Of a stretch of DNA of 20,558 bases, positions 3,029 through 17,405 are shown piece by piece. Source of the stretch: a virus. The position numbers and the translations under genes were made by a program. The first letter of the stretch is position 1; the number at the start of each line of letters is the position of its first letter. The notes under the pieces were generated by a model that saw only the letters and a list, made by a program, of their open reading frames with translations, ran no database searches and was not told the origin of the DNA. Location: IMG/VR virus record IMGVR_UViG_3300018420_002083, positions 1 through 20,558 of that record; one strand, 5' to 3'.

Positions 3029-3723
3029 CCCATGTAAAGGAAATTTCTGCCCCACCAGACTTCCTTGAATATATAAAATCCTTGTGTCTGAAATGGGCGG
3101 AAGAGGTGGTGGAGTCCAATACCGCTCCCCACCCATTTCTGAAACACAGACAACGACCACACCATATCATCAACACGGCTAGTTGGGATGAGTGGGATAA
3201 AGTAGAAGCGTATGCTGGTGTGCGCGAAGCACGTGAGATCAAACGCAGACAGATATTGATGCTCCGTGAGTATGGGTTGGTAAATCGTATTGTCATCGAA
3301 CAGTACGATATGCCTGAGATGGTTAACAAGTGGATTCAAGATGCGGTATATCAACAGTTTGGTATTCCGCACGATGAGACTATGCCCATCCTACAGATCC
3401 AGAATGGTGGTGAACTATTGCATCCCCATCAAGGTCATGGTAGGGAGGCTAGTATGTTTTGCTTGTTGCGTGGTGAGGGTGAGGTGACTAAGTGGTATGA
3501 AGAAATCGCACCCTTTGAGCAACTAGAGAAGTTCCGTATACCGGATCTGAGTAAGTTAGAAGTGAAGACCGAATATACCATGAAGGAGAATCAGTGGGTT
3601 CTCTTCAACCACAAAGCGTGGCATTCGGTACATAGGAAATCTGATGTTGGTGTAAGAATCAACTTAGGTGTTGATTTCAAAACAATGAATATAAAACAAA
3701 GTGAGGACTTTTTTGATGAGTAG
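3025..3723 (+). CDS. Cupin/2OG-Fe(II) oxygenase-like (double-stranded beta-helix) protein
   Basis: A 232-residue protein whose C-terminal half looks like a jelly-roll metal-binding domain. Possible metal ligands are in HPHQGHGRE (His133, His135, His138, Glu141), followed about 65 residues later by AWHSVH (His200/His203) and RINLGVDF (Arg211). This fits a cupin or a divergent 2-oxoglutarate/Fe(II) hydroxylase; the usual HxD pair is replaced by HxH, so enzyme activity is uncertain. The ATG at 3025 overlaps the previous stop in an ATGA junction. A GTG at 2995 is possible but less likely. Residues 1-115 are helical and unrecognised. The next gene, thyX, overlaps its end by 8 nt. Substrate unknown. 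Confidence 0.75.
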   Translation: MTHVKEISAPPDFLEYIKSLCLKWAEEVVESNTAPHPFLKHRQRPHHIINTASWDEWDKVEAYAGVREAREIKRRQILMLREYGLVNRIVIEQYDMPEMVNKWIQDAVYQQFGIPHDETMPILQIQNGGELLHPHQGHGREASMFCLLRGEGEVTKWYEEIAPFEQLEKFRIPDLSKLEVKTEYTMKENQWVLFNHKAWHSVHRKSDVGVRINLGVDFKTMNIKQSEDFFDE

Positions 3724-4411
3724 TGTGAGTTTGATTGCAATGAGCAGTCCATCGGCATACACCGAATGTCATACCGCCGAGGAACTGGTGGCGTATGCTG
3801 CTCGGGTTAGTAATCCTTCTAATCAAAGCAACAAGAAGACTGCCCAAGGTCTGGTGAAGTATCTGATCCGTGAAGGTCATTGGTCACCTTTCGAGATGGT
3901 TCATATCACCATGGAGATTAAAACGACTCGTGACATCGCACGACAGATCATACGACACCGCTCGTTTGCATTCCAAGAGTTCTCTCAACGGTATGCGGTA
4001 CAGAATGAATATGAGTTGCGTGAGGCACGACTACAAGACCCTAAGAACCGACAGAACTCTGTTGAACTAGATCTAGAGAATCTGGGTAAGGGTGGTGACA
4101 AGTCAACCGATGAACGCCTGTACGAGAACTGGAACATGAAACAGGCAGAGGTTGTTGCCGCATCCAAGGCAGCATACAACTGGGCGTTGGATAATGGTAT
4201 TGCCAAGGAACAGGCACGTGCAGTCCTACCCGAAGGTAACACGGAGTCCGTTCTCTACATGGCAGGATCATTACGCTCTTGGGTTCACTACTGTGATCTA
4301 CGCATGGGGAATGGTACTCAGAAGGAACATATGGTTGTTGCAAATCAGTGTTGGGATATCATTCGTGGTCACTTCCCGAATGTTGTAAAGGCATGTGAAG
4401 AAGATGGCTGA
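3716..4411 (+). CDS. thyX: Flavin-dependent thymidylate synthase
   Basis: ThyX methylates dUMP to dTMP using methylene-tetrahydrofolate, FAD and NADPH, giving the phage its own thymidylate supply. The family signature RHR-x7-S is present as RHRSFAFQEFSQR at residues 80-92 of a 231-residue protein, which is a normal ThyX length. Other supporting segments are GHWSPFEMVHITMEI before it and LPEGNTESVLYMAGSLRSWVHY-type sequence in the C-terminal third. The ATG at 3716 overlaps the end of the upstream gene; a GTG at 3701 is a weaker alternative. A serine hydroxymethyltransferase gene about 12 kb downstream (16224) could regenerate its folate cofactor. Confidence 0.96.
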   Translation: MSSVSLIAMSSPSAYTECHTAEELVAYAARVSNPSNQSNKKTAQGLVKYLIREGHWSPFEMVHITMEIKTTRDIARQIIRHRSFAFQEFSQRYAVQNEYELREARLQDPKNRQNSVELDLENLGKGGDKSTDERLYENWNMKQAEVVAASKAAYNWALDNGIAKEQARAVLPEGNTESVLYMAGSLRSWVHYCDLRMGNGTQKEHMVVANQCWDIIRGHFPNVVKACEEDG

Positions 4412-6061: not shown

Positions 6062-6204
6062 TGAAGAAACAAAAAGTCAAACCTCGTTTCGCAAAGGAAC
6101 TGTTTGACAAGGATACTCCCTATGGACATAAGGTTCAGCGGGATCGCACCAAATACAAGCGCAAGGACAAGCATCCCAGAGATAGTTGGGATACTACGCA
6201 GTAA
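6061..6204 (+). CDS. Small very basic hypothetical protein (47 aa)
   Basis: A 47-residue protein rich in Lys and Arg, starting MKKQKVKPRFAKELFDKD, with RDRTKYKRKDKHPRD near the end. The charge suggests nucleic-acid binding; similar tiny basic proteins are common in T4-like phages, but that is a general likeness only. The ATG at 6061 overlaps the preceding TAA, with a weak AGGT site before it. Its 3' end overlaps the minus-strand desaturase by 11 nt, so two converging transcription units meet here without a visible terminator. Confidence 0.65.
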   Translation: MKKQKVKPRFAKELFDKDTPYGHKVQRDRTKYKRKDKHPRDSWDTTQ

Positions 6205-6892
6205 AGAAGTTCCTTATGATAATCCCCGCAATGTCATGTCTGTGAAAACTGGCATTGTGGGCGTTATCATGATGTTGTTTGTGAAACCCCTCTCCGAAGG
6301 TTATCATCCCTAACCACCAATCACTGTGTGGTTCTCCTCCCCTATGTGAGTAACTAAACACAAGTGATCCTACCAACTTTGCCAGACCCGCTGGTGCGAG
6401 CCACGCATAGACAAGTGCGAATGGATCAATAAGAGATAAGAAACATCCCCAGACGAACAGACATTGCCAATAGTACTTGACTTGTGCTCTGTACCTATCT
6501 ACCTTCAGCAAGTCTCGAACATACTTGAAGTTGATTGTCGTGAACACTTGCAAGAAGTACGAGTAAAAATACCCCTTGTGAGTGGGAGAGTGTGGGTCTT
6601 TGTCGGTGTCTGTGAACAGGTGATGTTCTCTGTGGTTTGCTACCCAGACAATCGCAGACCCCACCATCATAATGTGTGCAAAGAATAACATCACATATTC
6701 AAACCACAGAGGCGACTCAAAGGCCTTGTGAGATAGGTATCGGTGGTATCCCATGGTGATACCAAAGGTCATGATACCGAAATACATGACTCCGAAAATT
6801 GCCCACTGTACCGGAGTGGCGTACATTACCATGGGTATCAGACTAAAGATTGCGGCAATCTGACCGATTAATAATTGTATGGGTAGACTCAT
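6194..6892 (-). CDS. Membrane fatty-acid desaturase (delta-9 type, three His boxes)
   Basis: A 232-residue integral membrane di-iron enzyme expected to introduce a double bond into acyl chains. All three histidine boxes are present: HRYLSH (residues 50-55), HREHH (87-91) and HKQHH (204-208). Hydrophobic spans lie at about 8-48, 65-85 and 140-180. The family is the acyl-lipid/acyl-CoA delta-9 desaturases; the electron donor is not encoded nearby and would come from the host. The ATG at 6892 forms an ATGA overlap with the upstream minus-strand gene and has AGGAA upstream. The two genes are the only minus-strand pair in the window. A role in fluidising host membrane during infection is inference. 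The protein is rather short, but nothing essential is missing. Confidence 0.93.
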   Translation of the reverse strand: MSLPIQLLIGQIAAIFSLIPMVMYATPVQWAIFGVMYFGIMTFGITMGYHRYLSHKAFESPLWFEYVMLFFAHIMMVGSAIVWVANHREHHLFTDTDKDPHSPTHKGYFYSYFLQVFTTINFKYVRDLLKVDRYRAQVKYYWQCLFVWGCFLSLIDPFALVYAWLAPAGLAKLVGSLVFSYSHRGGEPHSDWWLGMITFGEGFHKQHHDNAHNASFHRHDIAGIIIRNFFTA

Positions 6893-7188
6893 TGGTCTTT
6901 CCTATGGTTTCTAAATCGTCTGACCTTTCCATCGTAGAATAACATCTTGTACCATGGGGTGTTTTGTTTCATCTTAGGCAGAGTGTATTCCCATTTGCTT
7001 CCTTCCGGTGAAACCCAGACAACGTGATACCCTATCCATCGCTTGGATGCATACCATTCTGGTTTACCTCCGTGTTTGATCAACTGTTCCAATGTCCAGA
7101 AGTAACAGTTGTTTTTACTGCTGAACAGTCGGACAGGCCATGACCAAAAGAAGACTACAAATAGAAATAGCGTAAACAGTTTCCTCAT
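6889..7188 (-). CDS. Small protein with N-terminal membrane/signal segment, partner of the desaturase
   Basis: A 99-residue protein starting MRKLFTLFLFVVFFWSW. This start gives a basic N-terminus and a strong hydrophobic segment, which suits a membrane anchor or signal sequence. The rest is basic and aromatic (KHGGKPEWYASKRWIGYHVVW, then KMKQNTPWYKMLFYDGK). It shares an ATGA junction with the desaturase, so the two are co-translated. There is no Shine-Dalgarno sequence before the ATG at 7188, only a TATAAATA element five bases away, which may give a leaderless transcript. An alternative start at 7218 would place the promoter-like palindrome inside the gene. Function unknown. Confidence 0.7.
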   Translation of the reverse strand: MRKLFTLFLFVVFFWSWPVRLFSSKNNCYFWTLEQLIKHGGKPEWYASKRWIGYHVVWVSPEGSKWEYTLPKMKQNTPWYKMLFYDGKVRRFRNHRKDQ

Positions 7189-7193
7189 GCAGA

Positions 7194-7211
7194 TATTTAT
7201 ACTTATAAATA
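7194..7211. promoter_or_regulatory. Divergent pair of T4-late-type TATAAATA elements
   Basis: The sequence TATTTATA (7194-7201), CT, TATAAATA (7204-7211) is an 8-bp inverted repeat. Read on either strand it gives TATAAATA, the T4 late promoter -10 element recognised by gp55-containing polymerase. The minus copy points to the gene starting at 7188 and the plus copy to the gene starting at 7217. Exactly five bases separate each element from its ATG. No gp55 gene is in the window, so promoter identity is inferred from the consensus only. Confidence 0.6.
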
Positions 7212-7216
7212 TGAGC

Positions 7217-7498
7217 ATGGAACAAGCATTCACCCTAATAGAAGAATTAGGGTTTCCTATTGCATCCGCTTTGATTGGTGGATTCTTTATGTTTCTGACT
7301 CTCAAGTACATTATGGACGGCGTGATTGGTCAGGTGAACTCAATCAAAGGGATTGTGGGGAGCCTAGACAATCGCGTCAAGACCATGAATCATGATATGG
7401 TTCGTATGGATACGACTCTGTGTGTTGTTCTTGGAATAAGACCAGACCTCAATCGCATCAGTCGCGCTGACGGTAAAGAAGATGCAAGGCGAGACTGA
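7217..7498 (+). CDS. Single-span membrane protein, first gene of the curli-type operon
   Basis: A 93-residue protein with a transmembrane segment at about residues 12-34 and a helical hydrophilic tail that looks like a short coiled coil (IKGIVGSLDNRVKTMNHDM). I chose the ATG at 7217 because MEQAF...LGFPIA then aligns with MDFVE...FGFPVV at the start of the next protein; ATGs at 7211 and 7187 are alternatives. The two genes look like a duplicated pair. The layout (short N-terminus, one span, coiled coil) is like small holin-type or BhlA-like proteins, but this is a resemblance in shape only. It overlaps the next gene by 1 nt and starts the eight-gene block. Confidence 0.75.
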   Translation: MEQAFTLIEELGFPIASALIGGFFMFLTLKYIMDGVIGQVNSIKGIVGSLDNRVKTMNHDMVRMDTTLCVVLGIRPDLNRISRADGKEDARRD

Positions 7499-7749
7499 TG
7501 GACTTCGTAGAAGTAGTAAAGTCATTTGGGTTTCCGGTTGTCGCGGCAGTTGGTATGCTCTATATGATTTACTTTGTCTGGAAGACCATTACGGAAGAAG
7601 TTGAACGACAACTTGATGCGACTATGGTGACTTTGATTGCATTGATTGACCGTGTCAGAATGCTGGATAATGATATCATACGACTGCAACAGAAGTTAGA
7701 TACGGCGATTGAAATGAAGAGGGTGAACGAGGAAGAAAATAATGAATAA
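7498..7749 (+). CDS. Single-span membrane protein, paralogue of the preceding gene
   Basis: An 83-residue protein with a transmembrane segment at about residues 11-32 and a C-terminal coiled coil (about 35-80) with regularly spaced hydrophobic residues (LIALIDRVRMLDNDIIRLQQKL). Its N-terminus matches the upstream protein in pattern (M-D/E-x4-V/I-x2-x-GFP). It overlaps the upstream stop by 1 nt and csgF by 8 nt. It could be an inner-membrane partner for the secretion genes or a holin-like protein; neither is proven. Confidence 0.75.
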   Translation: MDFVEVVKSFGFPVVAAVGMLYMIYFVWKTITEEVERQLDATMVTLIALIDRVRMLDNDIIRLQQKLDTAIEMKRVNEEENNE

Positions 7750-8218
7750 TGTCTTGCGTACCTTTTATTTCAGAGCATTTGCGGCCGGCGTTGGAGTCGT
7801 ATTGTTGTCGTTCTGTACTGAGTCGGTTGCTGCGCCTATCGAACATCAATTCAAATCCCCTTCATTCAGTGGGATCAATCAGTCGAGTCACTATCTGACC
7901 ATTGAGAATCAAGAGACTTCTCGTAAGGAAGCCATTGAACAGGAACTTGAGGATCTTCAGGACGAGATCGAAAGAGACGCAGAGAATACGACTCTTGCGA
8001 AGTTTATACGTAACGTAGAAAGTAGGATTTACTCTACACTGTCGAGACAGATTGTAGATAGCATGTTCGGTGAGAACCCCAGTGATACTGGATCGTTCAA
8101 CATCGAAGGAACAGGAATAACATACGTCAAAAATGGCGATAGTGTGGAGTTAACGATAACGGATGAAGACGGTAGTACGACTGTTATTACTATCCCTATT
8201 GGTGATTTTGGGATCTAG
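7742..8218 (+). CDS. csgF: CsgF-like curli assembly factor
   Basis: In enteric curli systems CsgF is exported, binds the CsgG pore at its outer face and couples secretion to fibre nucleation. This protein has 158 residues (E. coli CsgF has 138). A signal peptide spans about residues 1-31, ending CTESVAA. The mature start HQFKSPSFSG matches the QFxNPxFGG motif of CsgF that plugs into the pore. The middle (LAKFIRNVESRIYSTLSRQI) matches the CsgF helix, and the end (ITYVKNGDSVELTITDEDG) matches its C-terminal strands. A Glu/Asp-rich insert around residues 60-80 is an oddity. A GAGGAAG ribosome site precedes the ATG. It overlaps csgG by 56 nt, and the two are adjacent as in bacterial curli operons. 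Confidence 0.88.
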   Translation: MNNVLRTFYFRAFAAGVGVVLLSFCTESVAAPIEHQFKSPSFSGINQSSHYLTIENQETSRKEAIEQELEDLQDEIERDAENTTLAKFIRNVESRIYSTLSRQIVDSMFGENPSDTGSFNIEGTGITYVKNGDSVELTITDEDGSTTVITIPIGDFGI

Positions 8219-8981
8219 TTGTGCTAGCATGAACTCTCAATTGGTTTTACCAAAACCAGAAGAGCCTAAAGTACAACTGACATTGCTTCAGAAAGAACTG
8301 AAGGATGTCTCAGCACCCACAAGGAAACCAACGGTAGCCGTTTATCAGTTTACCGATCAGACGGGACAGAAGAGACAGAACAGTAGTGGAGGGACTTCGT
8401 TTAGTTCCGCAGTGACCCAAGCGCCATCAGTGTATCTGATCAGGGCACTGAAGCGTGCGGCTAACGGAGAGTTTTTCCGTGTCGTGGATCGTCAAGTTCT
8501 TGATCACGTGACCAGAGAACGACAACTGATCAGACAGACTCGACAGTCGTATGAAGGAGAAGGATCGAAAAAATTACCAGCATTGACGTTTGCTGGTATG
8601 ATTATTGCAGGTGGTATCGTAGGTTTCGACACCTCTGTAGAGACGGGTGGGGCTGGTGCCAGATATCTTGGTATCGGATCTTCTCGTGAATATAGTGTTG
8701 ACACAGTGACGATTAATATCAGACTTGTGTCGGTTGCAACTGGTGAGGTTCTGCTTGATGTAATAACAAGCAAGACCATACTATCTACCGCTTATGGTGG
8801 GGATGTATTTAGATTTATAGAACAGGGTACTGAACTGGTAGAAGTAGAGTCAGGAGTAACCAAAAACGAAAGCGTCTCTATCGCGACTCAACGTGCAATA
8901 GAGGCTGGTGTCTTAGAACTGATATTGCAAGGAAGCGATAAGAAGTACTGGACTTTAATGGAGAAAACCAATGAGCGTTAG
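8163..8981 (+). CDS. csgG: CsgG-like outer-membrane curli secretion channel
   Basis: CsgG forms a nonameric outer-membrane lipoprotein pore that exports curli subunits. The 272-residue protein begins with a signal peptide ending LGSSC (Cys20, a slightly non-standard lipobox because position -3 is Gly). It continues with family blocks seen in E. coli CsgG: VAVYQFTDQTGQ, FSSAVTQAPSVYLIRAL, the IIAGGIVGFDTSVETGGAGARYLGIG segment (about 147-172), VNIRLVSVATGEVL-like sequence and SKTILSTAYGGDVFRFIE. Compared with E. coli, the constriction residue Phe56 is kept (Phe80) but Tyr51 and Asn55 appear replaced by small residues. The start lies within csgF with only a distant GGAG, so translation is probably coupled. 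The gene overlaps the curlin-like gene by 11 nt. Confidence 0.93.
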   Translation: MKTVVRLLLLSLLVILGSSCASMNSQLVLPKPEEPKVQLTLLQKELKDVSAPTRKPTVAVYQFTDQTGQKRQNSSGGTSFSSAVTQAPSVYLIRALKRAANGEFFRVVDRQVLDHVTRERQLIRQTRQSYEGEGSKKLPALTFAGMIIAGGIVGFDTSVETGGAGARYLGIGSSREYSVDTVTINIRLVSVATGEVLLDVITSKTILSTAYGGDVFRFIEQGTELVEVESGVTKNESVSIATQRAIEAGVLELILQGSDKKYWTLMEKTNER

Positions 8982-9699
8982 GCATACTAAGTTTGCCGTG
9001 ATGTTCGTAATCAGCTTTGCGGCCGCAACACTTGTCGCAGACAATGAAATATATATTGACCAAGTAGGAGATGGGTCTTCGATTGACATCGTACAGGATG
9101 GTTCGGGTAATGTCATAGGTGGGTCTACTACAGACACCACCAAGATGGTTCTGAACGGCGCGAATATGAACTTCAGCGTCAATCAAACCGGAAGCGGCAA
9201 TACCTTGATTGGTTCGGTCTTCGGTACATCGACAATTGATATTGATGTGGCGGGATCGACAAACGACATTCTGTTCGATGTTGATAAAGACAACGTGTAC
9301 GGTGCGACCAACGGAGACTATGTAATCAACATAACTGGCGGTAACAATGATCTGGACTTCGATGTCGGATCACTAGATACTGCTAATGATCTAGACCTTG
9401 ACTTTGTATTGGACGGTGACTTCAACACGGGCGATGTGAATATCGATGCGTCTAGTCTGACCTTTAATCTAGATATTGTTGGAGATAATAATAATCTAGT
9501 CTATGATGGTAGTGGGTATGATGGTCACAGTTTTGTGATTAGTGGTTCTGGTAACTATAATGATATTACAGTAAACCAAGAATCTACCTTACAGAAAGAT
9601 ACGCTGGAGATAGATTTTAATGGTTCGGGAACAAGCACAACTGCTGCTACTATGTGTATCAGCCAGTCTGATTCCGGTCTCAACACTACATGCGAGTGA
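8971..9699 (+). CDS. Curlin-like exported repeat protein, probable CsgG substrate
   Basis: A 242-residue protein with a signal peptide (about residues 1-23) and a mature part made of irregular repeats of about 20-25 residues. Copies such as IYIDQVGDGSSIDIVQDGSG (27-46) and FSVNQTGSGNTLIG (68-81) follow the curlin pattern of alternating hydrophobic strand residues, Gln, Gly-x-Gly and Asn. Later copies (around 117-135, 163-182, 188-203) keep the Gly/Asn turns but lose many Gln. The composition is very rich in Asp, Asn and Gly. Two cysteines (229, 241) near the C-terminus could form a disulfide. It lies directly after csgG, with GGAG eight bases before the ATG. Amyloid-like fibre formation is inferred; a secreted beta-solenoid adhesin is the alternative. 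It overlaps fecR by 80 nt. Confidence 0.78.
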   Translation: MSVRHTKFAVMFVISFAAATLVADNEIYIDQVGDGSSIDIVQDGSGNVIGGSTTDTTKMVLNGANMNFSVNQTGSGNTLIGSVFGTSTIDIDVAGSTNDILFDVDKDNVYGATNGDYVINITGGNNDLDFDVGSLDTANDLDLDFVLDGDFNTGDVNIDASSLTFNLDIVGDNNNLVYDGSGYDGHSFVISGSGNYNDITVNQESTLQKDTLEIDFNGSGTSTTAATMCISQSDSGLNTTCE

Positions 9700-10732
9700 T
9701 GTAGGAAACGTAGACCGTGCGATAGGGTGGAGAGAGATCCTCAGAGATGAGGCTTCTATTCGTCCGAATACTGGTCAGGATGTAGTGTCTAAGGATGACC
9801 TTCGCACGGGCGAGGGTCGCCTTCAGGTGCGTTTTGTTGATGATTCCAAACTAAGAATGACAGAACATACCCGTATCTTGATCGATAATGTGGTATTTGA
9901 TGATGATCCCAGTAAATCAGACCTTGCCATGACCTTTGCACAGGGTACAGCAAGGTTCATATCAGGTGAACTGGGTAAGGTCAATAAAGAGAATGTACGC
10001 CTACGAACCCCTACAGCATCTATCGGTATTCGGGGAACAGACTTCACAGTAACCGTCGATGAACTAGGACAGACCCTCGTAGTCTTATTGCCAGATGTCA
10101 ACGGAGTTTCGTCTGGTGAGATCATTGTGTCTACTATGGCTGGTGAGGTTGTACTGAACGAACCTTTCCAAGCGACCAACACTTATGTTGCCGAGGCACC
10201 ACCGAGCAGTCCCGCGATCCTAGATCTGACTCTGGACATGCTCAACAACATCATGATCATCAACCCACCCAAGAAGAAAGAGTCCGAAGAAGAGTTGATG
10301 TTGTCATCGACTAGTGCAAATCGAAACATCAACCCCCTTGACATAGACTTCCTTGATCAAGACTTGTTAGCAAACGAAGATCTGGAACGAGACTATCTGG
10401 AGTTCACTGAGTTGGACATAAACTTTCTTGATGTTGAACTACTGGAGGATTTGCTTGAAGCCTTTGACAGTCTGGATGAAGAACTACTAAAGGAACGACA
10501 AAGCACCGGAGAACTGTCTCTAGAGGGTACAGAAGAGGGGTTTGACCCCACTACTCAGTTTGCTACCATAGTAGAGGGTGACAAGGTTACGGTAAGACGA
10601 GAGGTCAATGACATCGCAGAGATACGAGTAGACAAGGATGCATCCACCCTTATAAATATGTCTCAGGACGGTAAACAACTTGACCCAGTCAAGATAAATG
10701 GACAAGACACGGTGATAGACATACTACAATGA
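9620..10732 (+). CDS. Exported FecR-domain protein with acidic C-terminal region
   Basis: A 370-residue protein with a signal peptide (1-25, ending TLHA). The FecR domain covers about residues 55-160; its hallmark TPTASIGIRGTDF is at 130-142. FecR domains in bacteria occur in envelope signalling proteins and in exported proteins near adhesins and cyclases. Residues about 238-292 are extremely acidic, with an internal repeat (PLDIDFLDQDLL at 239-250, ELDINFLDVELL at 264-275). The C-terminal 50 residues look like short beta strands. The start at 9620 gives the convincing signal peptide, although it lies 80 nt inside the curlin-like gene. The stop forms an ATGA junction with the cyclase gene. 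A periplasmic or secreted partner of the CHASE2 sensor is my inference. Confidence 0.85.
   Translation: MVREQAQLLLLCVSASLIPVSTLHASDVGNVDRAIGWREILRDEASIRPNTGQDVVSKDDLRTGEGRLQVRFVDDSKLRMTEHTRILIDNVVFDDDPSKSDLAMTFAQGTARFISGELGKVNKENVRLRTPTASIGIRGTDFTVTVDELGQTLVVLLPDVNGVSSGEIIVSTMAGEVVLNEPFQATNTYVAEAPPSSPAILDLTLDMLNNIMIINPPKKKESEEELMLSSTSANRNINPLDIDFLDQDLLANEDLERDYLEFTELDINFLDVELLEDLLEAFDSLDEELLKERQSTGELSLEGTEEGFDPTTQFATIVEGDKVTVRREVNDIAEIRVDKDASTLINMSQDGKQLDPVKINGQDTVIDILQ
10651..10658 (+). promoter_or_regulatory. Candidate T4-late-type promoter element inside fecR
   Basis: TATAAATA at 10651-10658, near the 3' end of fecR and about 70 bases before the cyclase ATG at 10729. By the T4 late consensus this could start a separate transcript for the cyclase. 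One or so such octamers is expected by chance in the window, so confidence is low. Confidence 0.3.
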
Positions 10733-12552
10733 AGACATGGCACGTATTGGTCACTCTTATTGTCATGGTGACAATAAGGTTATTAGACCCCTTTTTATTG
10801 GAGAGTGCAAGACTCTCTTTCTTTGATTCTCTGCAAAGAGCGCAAGACACAAAACCATCCGAGATCGTGCTGGTAGATATAGACGAGAAGGCCCTAGACG
10901 AACTAGGACAGTATCCCATTCCCCGTGAGTTACTCGCAAAAGAAATCGATAAGATGGGTGAGAGTCTGATTGGTATCAACATCTTGTTTTCTGAGGAAGA
11001 CAGGTGGGGCGGAGACGATGCCTTTGCTGAAACATTAGTATACAAACAGTCTGTGGTTGCGATCACACCGTCTAATCGGACGAAAACTGACTACAGACCA
11101 CCACGGATAGGAGTTGCCGCTTTTGGTGACAAAGCGGTAGAATCTTTCCTCTTTCCTTCCGCTGGTATGTTGTTCGCACAAGACAAGATACACAACTCAG
11201 CTTGGGGTTACGGGACAATATCTTCGACACAAGACATCGACGGCATTGTTCGCAGACAACCCCTACTGGTAAACTTTGATAACCGACTGTACCCCGCCTT
11301 CGCACTAGACCTACTCAGAGTCGCAGCAGGAGACATATCTTACCAGATATCTACGGATGACTATGGTATTGAGTTTGTCCGTATCCCAGCCTTCAAATCG
11401 ATCATGACGGACAGTGTCGGTAATGTGAACATCGCATACTGGAATGAGTTTAAGCGATACTCACTGGTGGATATGGATCAGATCCCAGACGGTTCAATCG
11501 CGATCATGGGTGCAACCTTCGAGGGATCTAATGTGGTGTCCACACCCATGGGAGCCATGTACCCGCACGACATTCAAGCAAACTTACTCAAGACCATGAT
11601 CGACGGAGTAGTGATCAAGAGACCGGATGAATTTATTTTATATGAGCTCTTGACAACTATTGTTTTTTGTGTTATACTCTTAGCTCTGCTCAGGGCGGCT
11701 AGTATACCAGTATCCGGTATGGTATTTGGTGTTATGGTTGCTGGGATTTACATCTTTTCGACAGACACTTTTGCAACCTACTTCTATCTAGTCGATCCGG
11801 TATTTCCTATTCTCACTCTAGTGTTGGTGTTCGCACACGGTTCCTTTGTACAGTTCTATACTCAGTTCAAAGCAAAGCAGATGATCAAGGGACAATTTGG
11901 TACATACCTATCTCCTGACATGGTTGACATGCTGGCTAAAGATCCGAGTCTGATGAAACTGGGTGGAGAGAAGAAGGAGATGTCATTCCTCTTCATGGAC
12001 ATTGTTGGGTTTACGCCCATCTCAGAACACTATAAGAACAATGACGATCCTGAAGGACTGGTCGCATTGATCAACAACTATCTCAATGAAATGACAAATA
12101 TTATTTTGAAAAATGGTGGAACCATTGATAAATACATGGGCGATTGCATCATGGCATTCTGGAACGCACCACTACCTTGTAACAACCACGCAGAGATGGC
12201 CGTCAAATCTGCAATAGAGATAGAGCAAAAAACTAATGTACTTAGACAACGATTTCTTGACGAAGGTCTACCCCCCATCAATGTCGGTACTGGCGTCAAT
12301 ACAGGTGACTGCATTGTTGGCAATATGGGTAGTGAATCTCGTTTTGACTACTCCGTCATTGGGGATGCAGTCAACCTTGCTGCCCGCCTTGAAGCAACTG
12401 CCGCCCGTGGCGACTATATCGACAACAAAACCATCTACTCCAGTTTTACCAAAGATCAACTCGTAGATATCAAGTCCAAACCCATAGGACAGATAAAGGT
12501 GAAAGGTAAGGAAGAGATGATAGACATCTATACTCATGATACAGGTAGTTGA
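10729..12552 (+). CDS. CHASE2-domain transmembrane class III adenylate cyclase
   Basis: A 607-residue membrane receptor expected to make cAMP from ATP. Order: N-terminal span (about 5-23); extracytoplasmic CHASE2 sensor (about 25-295, with VLVDIDEKALDELGQYPIPRE and GATFEGSNVVSTPMG segments); three spans (about 303-322, 328-345, 353-375); a short linker with GTYLSPDMVDML; and the class III cyclase domain (about 415-600). Catalytic residues are in place: metal Asp424 (FMDIVGFT) and Asp472 (KYMGDC), adenine-selecting Lys468 and Asp540 (FDYSVIGD), and Asn549/Arg553 (VNLAARLE). These favour adenylate over guanylate cyclase and suggest an active enzyme. It overlaps fecR by 4 nt and the next oxygenase by 17 nt. 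A sensor cyclase of this kind is unusual in a phage. Confidence 0.93.
   Translation: MKTWHVLVTLIVMVTIRLLDPFLLESARLSFFDSLQRAQDTKPSEIVLVDIDEKALDELGQYPIPRELLAKEIDKMGESLIGINILFSEEDRWGGDDAFAETLVYKQSVVAITPSNRTKTDYRPPRIGVAAFGDKAVESFLFPSAGMLFAQDKIHNSAWGYGTISSTQDIDGIVRRQPLLVNFDNRLYPAFALDLLRVAAGDISYQISTDDYGIEFVRIPAFKSIMTDSVGNVNIAYWNEFKRYSLVDMDQIPDGSIAIMGATFEGSNVVSTPMGAMYPHDIQANLLKTMIDGVVIKRPDEFILYELLTTIVFCVILLALLRAASIPVSGMVFGVMVAGIYIFSTDTFATYFYLVDPVFPILTLVLVFAHGSFVQFYTQFKAKQMIKGQFGTYLSPDMVDMLAKDPSLMKLGGEKKEMSFLFMDIVGFTPISEHYKNNDDPEGLVALINNYLNEMTNIILKNGGTIDKYMGDCIMAFWNAPLPCNNHAEMAVKSAIEIEQKTNVLRQRFLDEGLPPINVGTGVNTGDCIVGNMGSESRFDYSVIGDAVNLAARLEATAARGDYIDNKTIYSSFTKDQLVDIKSKPIGQIKVKGKEEMIDIYTHDTGS
11650..11678 (+). 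promoter_or_regulatory. Possible sigma70 promoter inside the cyclase gene
   Basis: TTGACA at 11650-11655 and TATACT at 11673-11678 with a 17-base spacer, in an AT-rich stretch coding for membrane spans. It could give a transcript for the cyclase-domain part and the oxygenase gene downstream. The coincidence of boxes and spacing is striking, but the location inside a gene keeps confidence moderate. Confidence 0.45.
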
Positions 12553-13036
12553 TAACTTTCTAGAACGCGATTCCTTTGATGAACTGGTACAGGCGTACCA
12601 CGAGTGTCGTATGTACAGTGCCTACGACTATGGTGAGAGACGAGGTGGTGCGTACTATGCGGTGGCAGACTGGATAGATTGTTACCGTAGCGATAACCTC
12701 AGATATGCGTTTGACGATATCTCGACACAAATCAATGAGGTGCTAGGTGTCAAAGTTCAACTGATGACGTTTTTCCGACACCCCCTAGAGACCTTTCCTG
12801 TCCTAGAGGGCCGTGGTGCGAATATCCCACAACACATTGATCGTAACTTCGAGAGGTCTGGTGTACTCTACATGCTTGGTGCAGAGGGACAAGGGACTAC
12901 CGTAAAGGATGAGTATGTTGAGTGGGTAGAGAATCGTGCTATTGCCTTTGATGCCCAGACCCTCCACAATCCACACTTCGGTGGTGCAGACCGTATCTCC
13001 CTCACATTTTTCGGAACTAATACGAAAAAGTTATAA
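12536..13036 (+). CDS. 2OG-Fe(II) oxygenase-like protein with canonical HxD...H site
   Basis: A 166-residue single-domain protein of the 2-oxoglutarate/Fe(II) dioxygenase fold. The iron ligands are probably His100 and Asp102 (PQHIDRN) and His144 (QTLHNPHFGG), with Arg153 (DRISLTFF) binding 2-oxoglutarate. The strand GVLYMLG and the segment VENRAIAFDAQTLHNP are typical of small phage hydroxylases related to prolyl hydroxylases. It overlaps the cyclase gene by 17 nt and closes the eight-gene block, followed by a 19-base gap to the next promoter. It may hydroxylate a protein of this block or of the host; the sequence does not say. Confidence 0.82.
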   Translation: MIQVVDNFLERDSFDELVQAYHECRMYSAYDYGERRGGAYYAVADWIDCYRSDNLRYAFDDISTQINEVLGVKVQLMTFFRHPLETFPVLEGRGANIPQHIDRNFERSGVLYMLGAEGQGTTVKDEYVEWVENRAIAFDAQTLHNPHFGGADRISLTFFGTNTKKL

Positions 13037-15792: not shown

Positions 15793-16224
15793 ATGATTGC
15801 TGTTGTTTCTAAGGGTGGACGGAAAGCTCATCGTGAGTTGGCTGAGAAGGTCTGTTACTTCATGATCAAAAAGTTGATGCCTCGCCACCGCAAAATCGTG
15901 GTCGGTATCGAATTTCAAGCGAACTTGGAAAAGAATGACGATATGATGGCGTATGCCATGGACTTGGAAGACCGAGTCTTCGAGATCGGTATTGACCGAG
16001 ACTTGATGAAGAACCACGGTCTTCGTGAGTTCGTCACTGCGGTCTGTCACGAGATGGTTCACGTGAAGCAGTATGTCAAAGGTGAACTGAAGTACACGGG
16101 TGGCAAAGAACTTTGGAAGGGTCGGGACTGCACCGACATGGAATACATGGAACAACCATGGGAGAAGGAGGCGTATCGCCTTCAGGACAAGTTAGCGTTA
16201 GAAATCTGGAATGAGGTCATGTAA
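15793..16224 (+). CDS. SprT-like zinc metallopeptidase-type protein
   Basis: A 143-residue protein with the zincin motif HEMVH (residues 86-90) followed by VKQYVKGEL, and a downstream PWEKEAYRL in which a Glu could be the third zinc ligand. This pattern matches small SprT-like proteins frequent in T4-like phages. Their cellular relatives act on DNA-protein crosslinks, but the phage role is unproven. I chose the ATG at 15793 because GAGG (15782-15785) lies seven bases before it; the ATG at 15787 is too close. The stop shares one base with glyA. Confidence 0.8.
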   Translation: MIAVVSKGGRKAHRELAEKVCYFMIKKLMPRHRKIVVGIEFQANLEKNDDMMAYAMDLEDRVFEIGIDRDLMKNHGLREFVTAVCHEMVHVKQYVKGELKYTGGKELWKGRDCTDMEYMEQPWEKEAYRLQDKLALEIWNEVM

Positions 16225-17405
16225 TGGACAATAGGATCACAAACATTCTTGACCGTGAGGTTGAGAGACAGAACAATACCATCGAACTGATTGCGAGTGA
16301 GAACTTTGCCTCGGACGCTGTGATGGGATTGTCCGGTAGTGTTTTTACCAACAAGTATGCCGAAGGGTATTCCGGTAAACGATACTACAATGGGTGTGAT
16401 CATATGGATGAGATCGAAGATCTTGCCATTGAACAGGTCAAACTACTCTACGGTTGTGGGTTTGCCAACGTCCAACCTCATTGCGGTGCTAATGCTAATA
16501 CCGCGATCTATCTTGCCTTCCTAGAGCCAGGAGATCGGATTCTGGGCATGGATCTTGCTAGTGGTGGTCATCTGTCGCACGGTGCGAAGGTAAACATCTC
16601 CGGTAAGGTCTATGAGTCACACTCTTATGGAGTCGATGAACAAGGATTCTTGGACTACGCAAAGATCCTTGATCAAGCGATCAAGGTCAAACCCAAGATG
16701 ATCGTAGCGGGTGCCAGTGCGTATCCTCGTCGCATCAACTGGCCAGCATTCCGTGATATTGCCGATGAGGTAGGTGCGTACCTACTGGTCGATATGGCGC
16801 ACTACAGTGGATTGATTGCGGGTGGTGCGTATCCGAATCCGGTACAGTGGGCAGATGTTGTTACATCCACCACCCATAAGACTCTTCGAGGGCCTCGTGG
16901 TGGTATCATCCTATGGAACGACCCCGACTATACGAAACGAATCAACAGTGCGGTGTTCCCCGGCTCTCAGGGAGGCCCTCTGATGAATCAGGTGGCGGCC
17001 AAGGCGCAGTGTTTCATTGAGGCGAATACCGATGAGTTTATAGGTTATGCTCATCAGGTGATCAGTAATGCGAAAGAGATGGCGCATGTATTCAAAGAAA
17101 ATGGATATAAGTGCTTGACAGATGGTACAGATTCGCATATAATACTACTTGATCTGAGTGACCACCACCTAAGTGGTCGGCAAGCAGCGGATCTACTGGA
17201 AGTGAATGGGATTACCGTCAACAAAAACGGTGTGCCCAATGACAAGCGTTCTTTTGTTGAGACTAGTGGTATCCGACTGGGCACCGCCGCCGAGACTACT
17301 CGTGGTAATAAACTGAAATTTAATGAAATCGCAAATAGACAGCGATTTCATGAAATCGCAAATAGAATAGTTAGAATCTTAAACACAGGAGTAGGTGATG
17401 ATTAA
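16224..17405 (+). CDS. glyA: Serine hydroxymethyltransferase
   Basis: SHMT converts serine and tetrahydrofolate to glycine and methylene-tetrahydrofolate using pyridoxal phosphate. The 393-residue protein follows E. coli GlyA throughout: ELIASENFAS, TNKYAEGYSGKRYYNGC, NVQPHCGANAN, GHLSHG, VDMAHYSGLIAGG, the PLP-binding lysine in TSTTHKTLRGPRGG (Lys219), FPGSQGGPLMN, NGITVNKNGVPND and SGIRLGT. It is shorter than the usual 415-420 residues at the C-terminus and has a 9-residue tandem duplication there (EIANR twice). Catalytic residues appear intact. With ThyX it would close a phage one-carbon cycle for dTMP. The gene is coupled to the upstream metallopeptidase gene (1-nt overlap). Confidence 0.96.
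   Translation: MDNRITNILDREVERQNNTIELIASENFASDAVMGLSGSVFTNKYAEGYSGKRYYNGCDHMDEIEDLAIEQVKLLYGCGFANVQPHCGANANTAIYLAFLEPGDRILGMDLASGGHLSHGAKVNISGKVYESHSYGVDEQGFLDYAKILDQAIKVKPKMIVAGASAYPRRINWPAFRDIADEVGAYLLVDMAHYSGLIAGGAYPNPVQWADVVTSTTHKTLRGPRGGIILWNDPDYTKRINSAVFPGSQGGPLMNQVAAKAQCFIEANTDEFIGYAHQVISNAKEMAHVFKENGYKCLTDGTDSHIILLDLSDHHLSGRQAADLLEVNGITVNKNGVPNDKRSFVETSGIRLGTAAETTRGNKLKFNEIANRQRFHEIANRIVRILNTGVGDD
17115..17143 (+). promoter_or_regulatory. Consensus sigma70 promoter inside glyA
   Basis: TTGACA at 17115-17120 and TATAAT at 17138-17143, spacer exactly 17 bases, within the glyA coding sequence about 255 bases before the gene at 17398. All twelve consensus bases match, so a real internal promoter for the genes at 17398 and 17670 is likely. 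Confidence 0.65.
17318..17366 (+). repeat. Short tandem duplication in glyA
   Basis: Two 22-base copies (17318-17339 and 17345-17366) differ at one position and lie at a 27-base period. They encode FNEIANR and FHEIANR. Aligned with E. coli GlyA, the extra nine residues fall in the C-terminal helix. In-frame slippage duplication is the simplest explanation. Confidence 0.85.

Follow-up and report, generated by a model that had tools for sequence, protein, structure and literature searches.

A late-promoter motif and bacterial counterparts for a curli-type secretion cassette with FecR and CHASE2 cyclase genes in marine phages

Introduction

Why would a phage carry the pore through which bacteria export curli subunits across the outer membrane? 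The question is raised by IMG/VR virus record IMGVR_UViG_3300018420_002083, a fragment of a T4-like marine phage that is 20,558 bases long and ends where our analyzed stretch (the window) ends. At positions 7217 to 13036 of the window, eight open reading frames (ORFs) follow each other on the plus strand with overlaps of 1, 8, 56, 11, 80, 4, and 17 nucleotides (nt). A first-pass annotation made from the sequence alone had given exactly this layout, and had read the genes, from two membrane proteins through CsgF, CsgG, a curlin-like protein, a FecR protein, and a CHASE2 cyclase to an oxygenase, as a phage-encoded envelope secretion and signaling system.

The same annotation noted that csgF and csgG had been reported in some marine phages. 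That pair is known (PMC7029224, PMC9004378), but so is the whole module with FecR, curlin, and cyclase, published in 2022 for pelagiphages (PMC9599517); statements taken from these papers refer to the parts of their text that were accessible. Since HTVC008M and Melnitz carry this published module in the same order, the cassette itself is not new, and the window adds another carrier to phage curli modules already described across the ocean. A literature search on FecR with CHASE2, FecR-cyclase-curli operons, and phage curli or type VIII secretion, with whole papers and supplements outside its scope, found no report of bacterial units of this kind, of a late-promoter motif, of a C-terminal FecR domain, or of carriers among phages larger than 200 kb.

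Here we ask what the cassette is built to do, when it is used, and where else it occurs. We consider it about an even chance that the phage uses it for type VIII (curli) secretion late in infection.

Results

Seven of the eight genes form the conserved cassette: two small genes that we call m1 and m2, csgF, csgG, a curlin-like gene, fecR, and a CHASE2 adenylate cyclase gene. Pfam confirmed the CsgF, CsgG, FecR, CHASE2, and class III cyclase identities. Relatives were drawn from viral contigs scanned with CsgG (best 80 of 151 relatives) or with m1 (best 80 of at least 501), and from bacterial genome contigs scanned with a CsgG alignment (best 80 of at least 554); many IMG/VR contigs are near-copies, so the loci are not all independent. 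Counts of complete cassettes, overlaps, and promoter upstreams use complete ORFs with starts picked by rule, which may overstate overlaps.

At 77 of the 80 viral CsgG loci m1 and/or m2 is present, and the other three (L024, L033, and L049) lie at the end of a contig that starts within csgF or csgG. Single m genes occur at L050 to L057, and at L065 m1/m2 lie downstream on the opposite strand. All seven genes are complete ORFs at 34 of 79 loci from the CsgG scan, the others being cut by contig ends, failing the complete-ORF rule, or having no visible cyclase. Long overlaps recur in both viral scans between csgF and csgG (102/118 loci, median 56 nt) and between the curlin-like gene and fecR (95/102, median 80 nt). 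Across the 80 viral CsgG loci the gene order is not chance, and the overlapping genes are probably translated together. The window also has the order of the pelagiphage module, with csgF, csgG, curlin, fecR, and cyclase following small membrane genes; what it lacks is the additional curlin gene that the pelagiphage module has after fecR and before the cyclase gene. Two records larger than 200 kb (349 and 236 kb) carry both the cassette and a terminase, so the cassette is seen in phages of that size as well; of 10 records examined for terminase, 4 had one.

The exporter parts are the most readily recognized. The csgG gene (8163..8981, plus strand; Pfam CsgG, 4e-50) encodes an outer membrane pore lipoprotein by homology, with a profile match of 2.6e-72 to CsgG in the PDB. 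Its lipobox cysteine, Cys20, is invariant in 22 of 22 sequences, and because of this residue and the family to which the protein belongs, an outer membrane location is predicted. The csgF gene (7742..8218, plus strand; Pfam CsgF, 5e-18) encodes an N-terminal F-x-x-P-x-F-x-G segment that is invariant or near-invariant among 21 sequences and aligns, weakly (E = 0.016), with CsgF of PDB entry 6l7a. The two marks of a type VIII exporter, a CsgG with a lipobox and a CsgF with the pore-inserted segment, are both present by sequence, and Melnitz also keeps the segment. The window CsgG is 45.6% identical to that of HTVC008M and 40.6% identical to that of Melnitz. A more distant relative (39% identity) lies in OR851715.1, an unannotated record of 1,499 bases labeled as a Salmonella phage, whose phage nature looks doubtful.

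The candidate substrate is encoded at 8971..9699 (plus strand) and has a hydrophobic N terminus; here and below, hydrophobic segments and signal-peptide-like starts are read from hydropathy alone. At the level of the family, the curlin-like identity given in the first-pass annotation has some support: 17 of 20 members match Curlin_rpt at an E value of 1 or less (best, 7e-8), five G-x-x-N pairs are conserved, and the structural model is a beta-solenoid with a mean pLDDT of 82.5. For the window copy itself the match is weak (E = 0.014).

In its homologous CsgG and CsgF, with lipobox and pore segment, and in the curlin repeats of the family, the cassette resembles the curli system of Escherichia coli. 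The E. coli operons comprise CsgA to CsgG without FecR or cyclase (PMC9599517), whereas the phage cassette holds FecR and a CHASE2 cyclase inside the unit, adds m1 and m2, and has a highly diverged curlin. One proposal for phage CsgG is that nutrients or cofactors enter the infected cell through an open pore (PMC7029224, PMC9599517). No CsgE gate was found among the nine window proteins scanned with Pfam, as that proposal would have it, but it leaves the curlin, FecR, and cyclase genes and the CsgF plug unexplained, and we regard it as improbable.

Evidence on timing comes from the DNA at the head of the cassette. The sequence TATAAATA, a T4-type late-promoter motif, has five exact matches in the window, compared to 0.54 expected, and none of 100 shuffles reached five. 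One copy (7204..7211, plus strand) starts 13 nt before the m1 start codon at 7217. Back to back with it, in a pair spanning 7194 to 7211, a minus-strand copy (7194..7201) has its first base 13 nt before the ATG (7188) of the leftward ORF 6889-7311. A further plus-strand copy within fecR (10651..10658), 78 nt before the cyclase start, is a possible internal late promoter. The T4-like late-promoter motif has been given as TATAAAT (PMC9004378).

Exact TATAAATA matches within 100 nt before m1 occur in 53 of 120 distinct upstream sequences of relatives. For the other cassette genes, which served as controls, the corresponding counts are 0/113 for m2, 4/89 for csgF, 0/89 for csgG, 2/97 for curlin, and 0/76 for fecR, with 7 of 45 distinct starts for the cyclase. 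In the set from the CsgG scan, the motif precedes m1 in 33 of 49 cases, at exactly 13 nt in 14 and at 13 to 18 nt in 28; in the set from the m1 scan, it does so in 23 of 74, at scattered distances. Given the spacing between motif and message start at T4 late promoters, an m1 message from a motif 13 nt away would begin at the start codon, which suggests late mRNAs that are leaderless or nearly so. Expression of the cassette is probably late, and its heading by a late motif in many relatives is an addition to the published account.

This timing bears on the purposes listed in the first-pass annotation, which included surface fibers, blocking of superinfection, aggregation, and lysis timing. One possibility is that the same exporter serves another end, with a secreted curlin-like coat hiding receptors and blocking superinfecting phages. 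Protection against competing viruses has been proposed (PMC9599517), and the exporter parts such a coat would need are intact. However, genes headed by a late-type motif would be expressed too late to exclude other phages, and this speaks against an early block, leaving surface fibers, aggregation, and roles at the release stage. We consider superinfection blocking doubtful, if still worth keeping in mind.

A late promoter would also fit lysis, and for Melnitz CsgG and CsgF have been proposed, from AlphaFold models and gene order, to act in lysis timing, as a repurposed pinholin- or secretin-like pore (PMC9004378). A very weak likeness of m2 to the holin family phrog_4898 (E = 0.0085) is compatible with this. 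Against a lysis pore, the invariant lipobox cysteine is a sign of outer membrane location, CsgF retains its pore segment, also in Melnitz, curlin-like and fecR genes accompany the pore at CsgG loci that reach far enough, and three bacterial loci described below keep the same genes. The Melnitz paper reports csgGF and denies csgA and csgB, contrary to the Melnitz record, which annotates two curlin-repeat genes beside the pore. A lysis-timing pore seems unlikely to us, and we return to late export of a curlin-like substrate.

Part of what distinguishes the cassette from classical curli systems is the pair of genes that follows the curlin-like gene. The FecR-domain protein (9620..10732, plus strand; Pfam FecR, 7e-12) has the domain in 21 of 21 members, and a model built with 51 sequences (mean pLDDT, 81; pTM, 0.53) shows an N-terminal helix, the FecR domain at about residues 27 to 205, a low-confidence, acidic-rich linker at about 211 to 300, and a separate beta domain at 301 to 369 with block pLDDT means of 92 to 95. 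Residues 8 to 26 are hydrophobic and signal-peptide-like. Against the PDB, the FecR part matched periplasmic domains of anti-sigma regulators, PupR among them (6ovk, E = 7e-5), and the four matches at an E value of 0.001 or less are all anti-sigma factors by name.

The label printed for this protein makes it an iron-responsive regulator of the module, as its FecR domain, recognizable in both sequence and fold, might suggest. The cytosolic N terminus of an anti-sigma factor was not found; in its place stand the hydrophobic stretch at 8 to 26 and a beta domain from residue 27. No sigma-factor gene was found among the nine window proteins scanned, and an iron regulator would not account for the extra C-terminal beta domain. 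As modeled, the protein does not have the build of a sigma regulator; it looks exported and has two folded domains, and iron-responsive regulation appears very improbable.

The C-terminal end offers a hint of what that second domain might be related to. Ile366, Ile368, and Gln370 are near-invariant among 51 sequences, and this I-x-I-x-Q ending resembles the ending of the curlin-like proteins. Against the curlin family profile the FecR tail scored 19.4, compared to maxima of 16.0 in 200 plain column shuffles and 15.7 in 200 shuffles that kept the alternation, 10.8 for the reversed tail, and 8.7 to 14.6 for five other families. Kinship of the C-terminal domain with curlin is, on this showing, suggestive.

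The CHASE2 adenylate cyclase (10729..12552, plus strand; Pfam CHASE2, 4e-37; Guanylate_cyc, 6e-19) has hydrophobic segments at residues 6 to 24 and three more within 303 to 369, suggesting a topology with CHASE2 outside and the cyclase domain inside. Of 56 distinct sequences from phages and bacteria, all have D424, K468, D472, and R553, and 50 have N549; we take these to be the two metal-binding aspartates, the adenine-binding lysine, and the transition-state asparagine and arginine. By sequence, then, this class III cyclase has its catalytic residues. Its closest solved structure by sequence is CyaB (1.8e-37), in which a threonine aligns with Ser542 of the phage enzyme. Asp546 had been considered as the substrate-specificity residue; the CyaB alignment places Ser542 there, and neither D540 nor D546 is used as evidence. 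A C-terminal extension of about 70 residues, missing in window-type cyclases, is seen in the cyclases of Melnitz (L003) and of rearranged phages and bacteria (L085, L087, L088, L090, L193, and L206).

A FecR-CHASE2 pairing has a precedent in the Burkholderia BiofilmReg operon, where a periplasmic LysM-FecR protein is encoded next to a CHASE2 histidine kinase (PMC5192318). There, unlike in the cassette, CHASE2 is joined to a histidine kinase and FecR to LysM, and curli are not mentioned in the accessible text. The pairing also recurs at 2 (L249 and L255) of 27 short bacterial loci, where FecR lies next to a frame matching the cyclase profile.

The two head genes, m1 (7217..7498, plus strand) and its paralog m2 (7498..7749, plus strand), both match phrog_18771, and m2 has no Pfam family above the cutoff. 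They encode proteins of 93 and 83 amino acids with one hydrophobic segment each (at about residues 11 to 37 in m1), in line with their description as membrane proteins in the first-pass annotation. The conserved end of m1 is C-terminal, and P76, R80, G86, D89, R91, and D93 are invariant among 17 sequences. In print such proteins are labeled histidine kinases. That label fails for these short sequences: neither the dimerization domain (HisKA) nor the ATPase domain (HATPase) appeared among Pfam matches at an E value of 1 or less for 22 m1/m2 members.

Among 50,697 named phage records, m1 was found in six, namely two HTVC008M records and four Melnitz strains, representing two kinds of phage. The same six hold FecR and CsgG, and OR851715.1 is the one CsgG match beyond them. 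At loci from the m1 scan the order is often broken, and 16 of 17 complete cyclases and m1 are on different strands, a share that is biased because the 5-kb flank cuts off cyclases in the normal order. CsgG lies within the retrieved stretch at 46 of 80 m1 loci. For 27 of the 34 others whole records were searched: all 9 records of 26.6 to 183 kb yielded CsgG, and none of the 18 records of 4.8 to 20.0 kb did. The remaining seven have CsgF or FecR nearby. The first-pass annotation had held that finding the genes apart in relatives, with no co-occurrence, would count against a single system. The search for the same order brought no such refutation, and even with a broken order, all searched records of at least 26.6 kb contain both m1 and CsgG. 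Thus, m1 and m2 track CsgG, including in phages larger than 200 kb and in loci with broken gene order.

FecR is encoded beside csgG at 9 of the 80 bacterial loci, with a cyclase at 8 of those 9; one further locus (L089) has m1/m2 and ends within its curlin gene, and the remaining 70 show neither FecR nor cyclase in the retrieved stretch. Seven loci with an m1 or m2 match (L084, L086, L087, L089, L091, L093, and L094) lie on contigs of metagenome-assembled genomes (MAGs) assigned to Maricaulis, Sphingobacteriales, Rhodobacteraceae, Flavobacteriales, Saprospirales, and Planctomycetaceae. These are probably phage contigs binned with bacteria, and they were grouped with phages in trees; at L084 the m1 match is weak (1e-7) and the stretch has no cyclase.

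Three bacterial loci without m1/m2 carry csgF-csgG-curlin-FecR-cyclase in the order of the phage cassette. One belongs to Hyphomonas sp. TMED17 (L085), where genes for a TonB-type receptor, a lactone oxidase, and a fumarylacetoacetate (FAA) hydrolase surround it on a contig of 705 kb; another lies on an 83-kb Caulobacteraceae contig with metabolic neighbors (L090), and the third (L088), a close relative of L090, is taken as bacterial by that likeness. These three MAG loci place FecR and cyclase genes in the curli units of some bacteria, which contradicts a statement in PMC9599517. They differ from the window in that m1 has no match in the three genomes and the cyclases are longer, with a C-terminal extension; the Caulobacteraceae loci also have two curlin genes. 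The C-terminal end of FecR is common to the Caulobacteraceae copies and only partly present in the Hyphomonas copy. Such units are rare in the bacterial genomes drawn. Among 299 genomes of the source genome's order, a FecR match below 1e-25 was found in the source genome alone, as was one below 1e-38 among 385 genomes of its class.

The CsgG tree has 40 rows for phages, of which 5 come from MAG loci, 2 for the bacterial units, and 28 for other bacteria. In it, the bacterial units are nested within the phage part, and other bacterial CsgG proteins form a supported outgroup (100/99). Monophyly of phage CsgG was rejected (approximately unbiased [AU] test, p-AU = 0.0009), for a group chosen after the tree had been seen. 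A FecR tree places the bacterial units in the same way, with L085 on a long branch. The phage rows nearest these units, L219 and L225, have 18-kb records in which no terminase was found, so their viral nature rests on IMG/VR. Published work describes the viral sequences as monophyletic with an alphaproteobacterial source (PMC9599517). The simplest reading of the trees is that cassette genes passed from phage to bacterium, and a poorly sampled bacterial reservoir is still conceivable instead.

Other parts of the window give context for the cassette. Among the 12 phages listed of 3,125 records, the replicative helicase is closest to that of phage C48C1 (Kyanoviridae; 72.9% identity), and the remaining listed phages (Synechococcus phages and Melnitz) show 58 to 63%. 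C48C1, a complete genome, was not among the CsgG matches, which makes the cassette look accessory. The GC content of the window (45%) differs from that of the corresponding regions of HTVC008M (33%) and Melnitz (37%), so the host may belong to another group. Searches of the window returned no Rfam family at the gathering score and no tRNA. Downstream of the cyclase, the eighth gene (12536..13036, plus strand) is a 2-oxoglutarate (2OG)-oxygenase-like neighbor whose Asp_Arg_Hydrox match is weak (E = 0.13), leaving the oxygenase assignment tentative. Of 39 loci that allow the test, 17 have it directly after the cyclase (13 of 32 when only distinct cyclases are counted), and it is ruled out as a cassette member. 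Three possible auxiliary metabolic genes were recognized by reading: a ThyX-type thymidylate synthase (3701-4411, plus strand; 58% match at Melnitz thyX), a fatty-acid desaturase-like gene (6194-6892, minus strand), and a serine hydroxymethyltransferase-like gene (16224-17405, plus strand).

Discussion

The reading of these genes as an envelope secretion and signaling system is supported in part. It fits the lipobox of CsgG, the pore segment of CsgF, the beta-solenoid model of the curlin-like protein, and the catalytic residues of the CHASE2 cyclase; the oxygenase falls outside. In the model that we favor, and to which we give roughly even chances, CsgG would insert as a lipoprotein pore in the infected cell's outer membrane, the N-terminal segment of CsgF would plug its mouth, and the curlin-like beta-solenoid would pass through Sec and then CsgG to the surface, forming fibers or a coat, as expected from what is known of these families. 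We are less sure of the sensory steps. The FecR protein may be a periplasmic partner of the CHASE2 sensor, its C-terminal beta domain, possibly related to curlin, reporting export or pile-up of curlin, and the cyclase may convert that signal to cytosolic cyclic AMP (cAMP), with m1 and m2 perhaps acting at the inner membrane to tune the sensor or the pore. What the phage probably gains, a guess that we share with earlier authors, is that surface fibers on a dying cell could hold debris, new virions, and neighboring cells together in dilute water.

Several observations weigh against this model. TATAAATA is missing from 67 of the 120 distinct m1 upstreams and from the 60 nt before m1 in HTVC008M, and the Melnitz copy overlaps the start codon of m1, so that with T4 spacing the message would begin inside m1. 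The window copy of the curlin-like protein reaches 15.7 bits for Curlin_rpt, under the curated cutoff of 20.7, and a Foldseek search of the PDB with its model returned no match at an E value of 0.001 or less. HHalign comparison of the FecR tail with curlin was weak (probability, 5 to 10%; P = 0.003 to 0.007). At four near-copy loci (L073, L074, L075, and L077) no cyclase is seen in the 6.9 kb after fecR. A search of 12 phage records, of which some may be fragmentary, found no cyclic nucleotide monophosphate (cNMP)-binding domain, so that any cAMP receptor would need to be supplied by the host. Such a domain is present in 107 of 142 alphaproteobacterial genomes and was not found in the other 35, of which the 20 listed are 0.8 to 2.3 Mb in size. 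Finally, the accessible text on Melnitz reports no clumping in cytograms or by transmission electron microscopy (TEM) (PMC9004378).

A bolder version of the model, which we put forward only tentatively, is that a self-monitoring secretion unit evolved in phages and was passed to bacteria. In this unit, the curlin-like C terminus of FecR would sense curlin traffic in the periplasm and set the output of the CHASE2 cyclase, so that cAMP in the infected cell reports fiber export. The m1 and m2 proteins would be phage-only membrane partners in this circuit, and the rare chromosomal copies in Hyphomonas and Caulobacteraceae would be of phage origin, opposite to the direction proposed in print.

In some of its parts, its probable timing, and its bacterial counterparts, the cassette looks unlike the published account, and several printed labels need correcting, among them kinases without a kinase domain and an iron regulator with the build of an exported protein. 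For experiments, the bacteria that have this sensor pair in homologous units may be more tractable than SAR11. If fibers are made, infection would build surface structures on cells that otherwise have none, and so would affect how very abundant bacteria aggregate, recombine, and sink.

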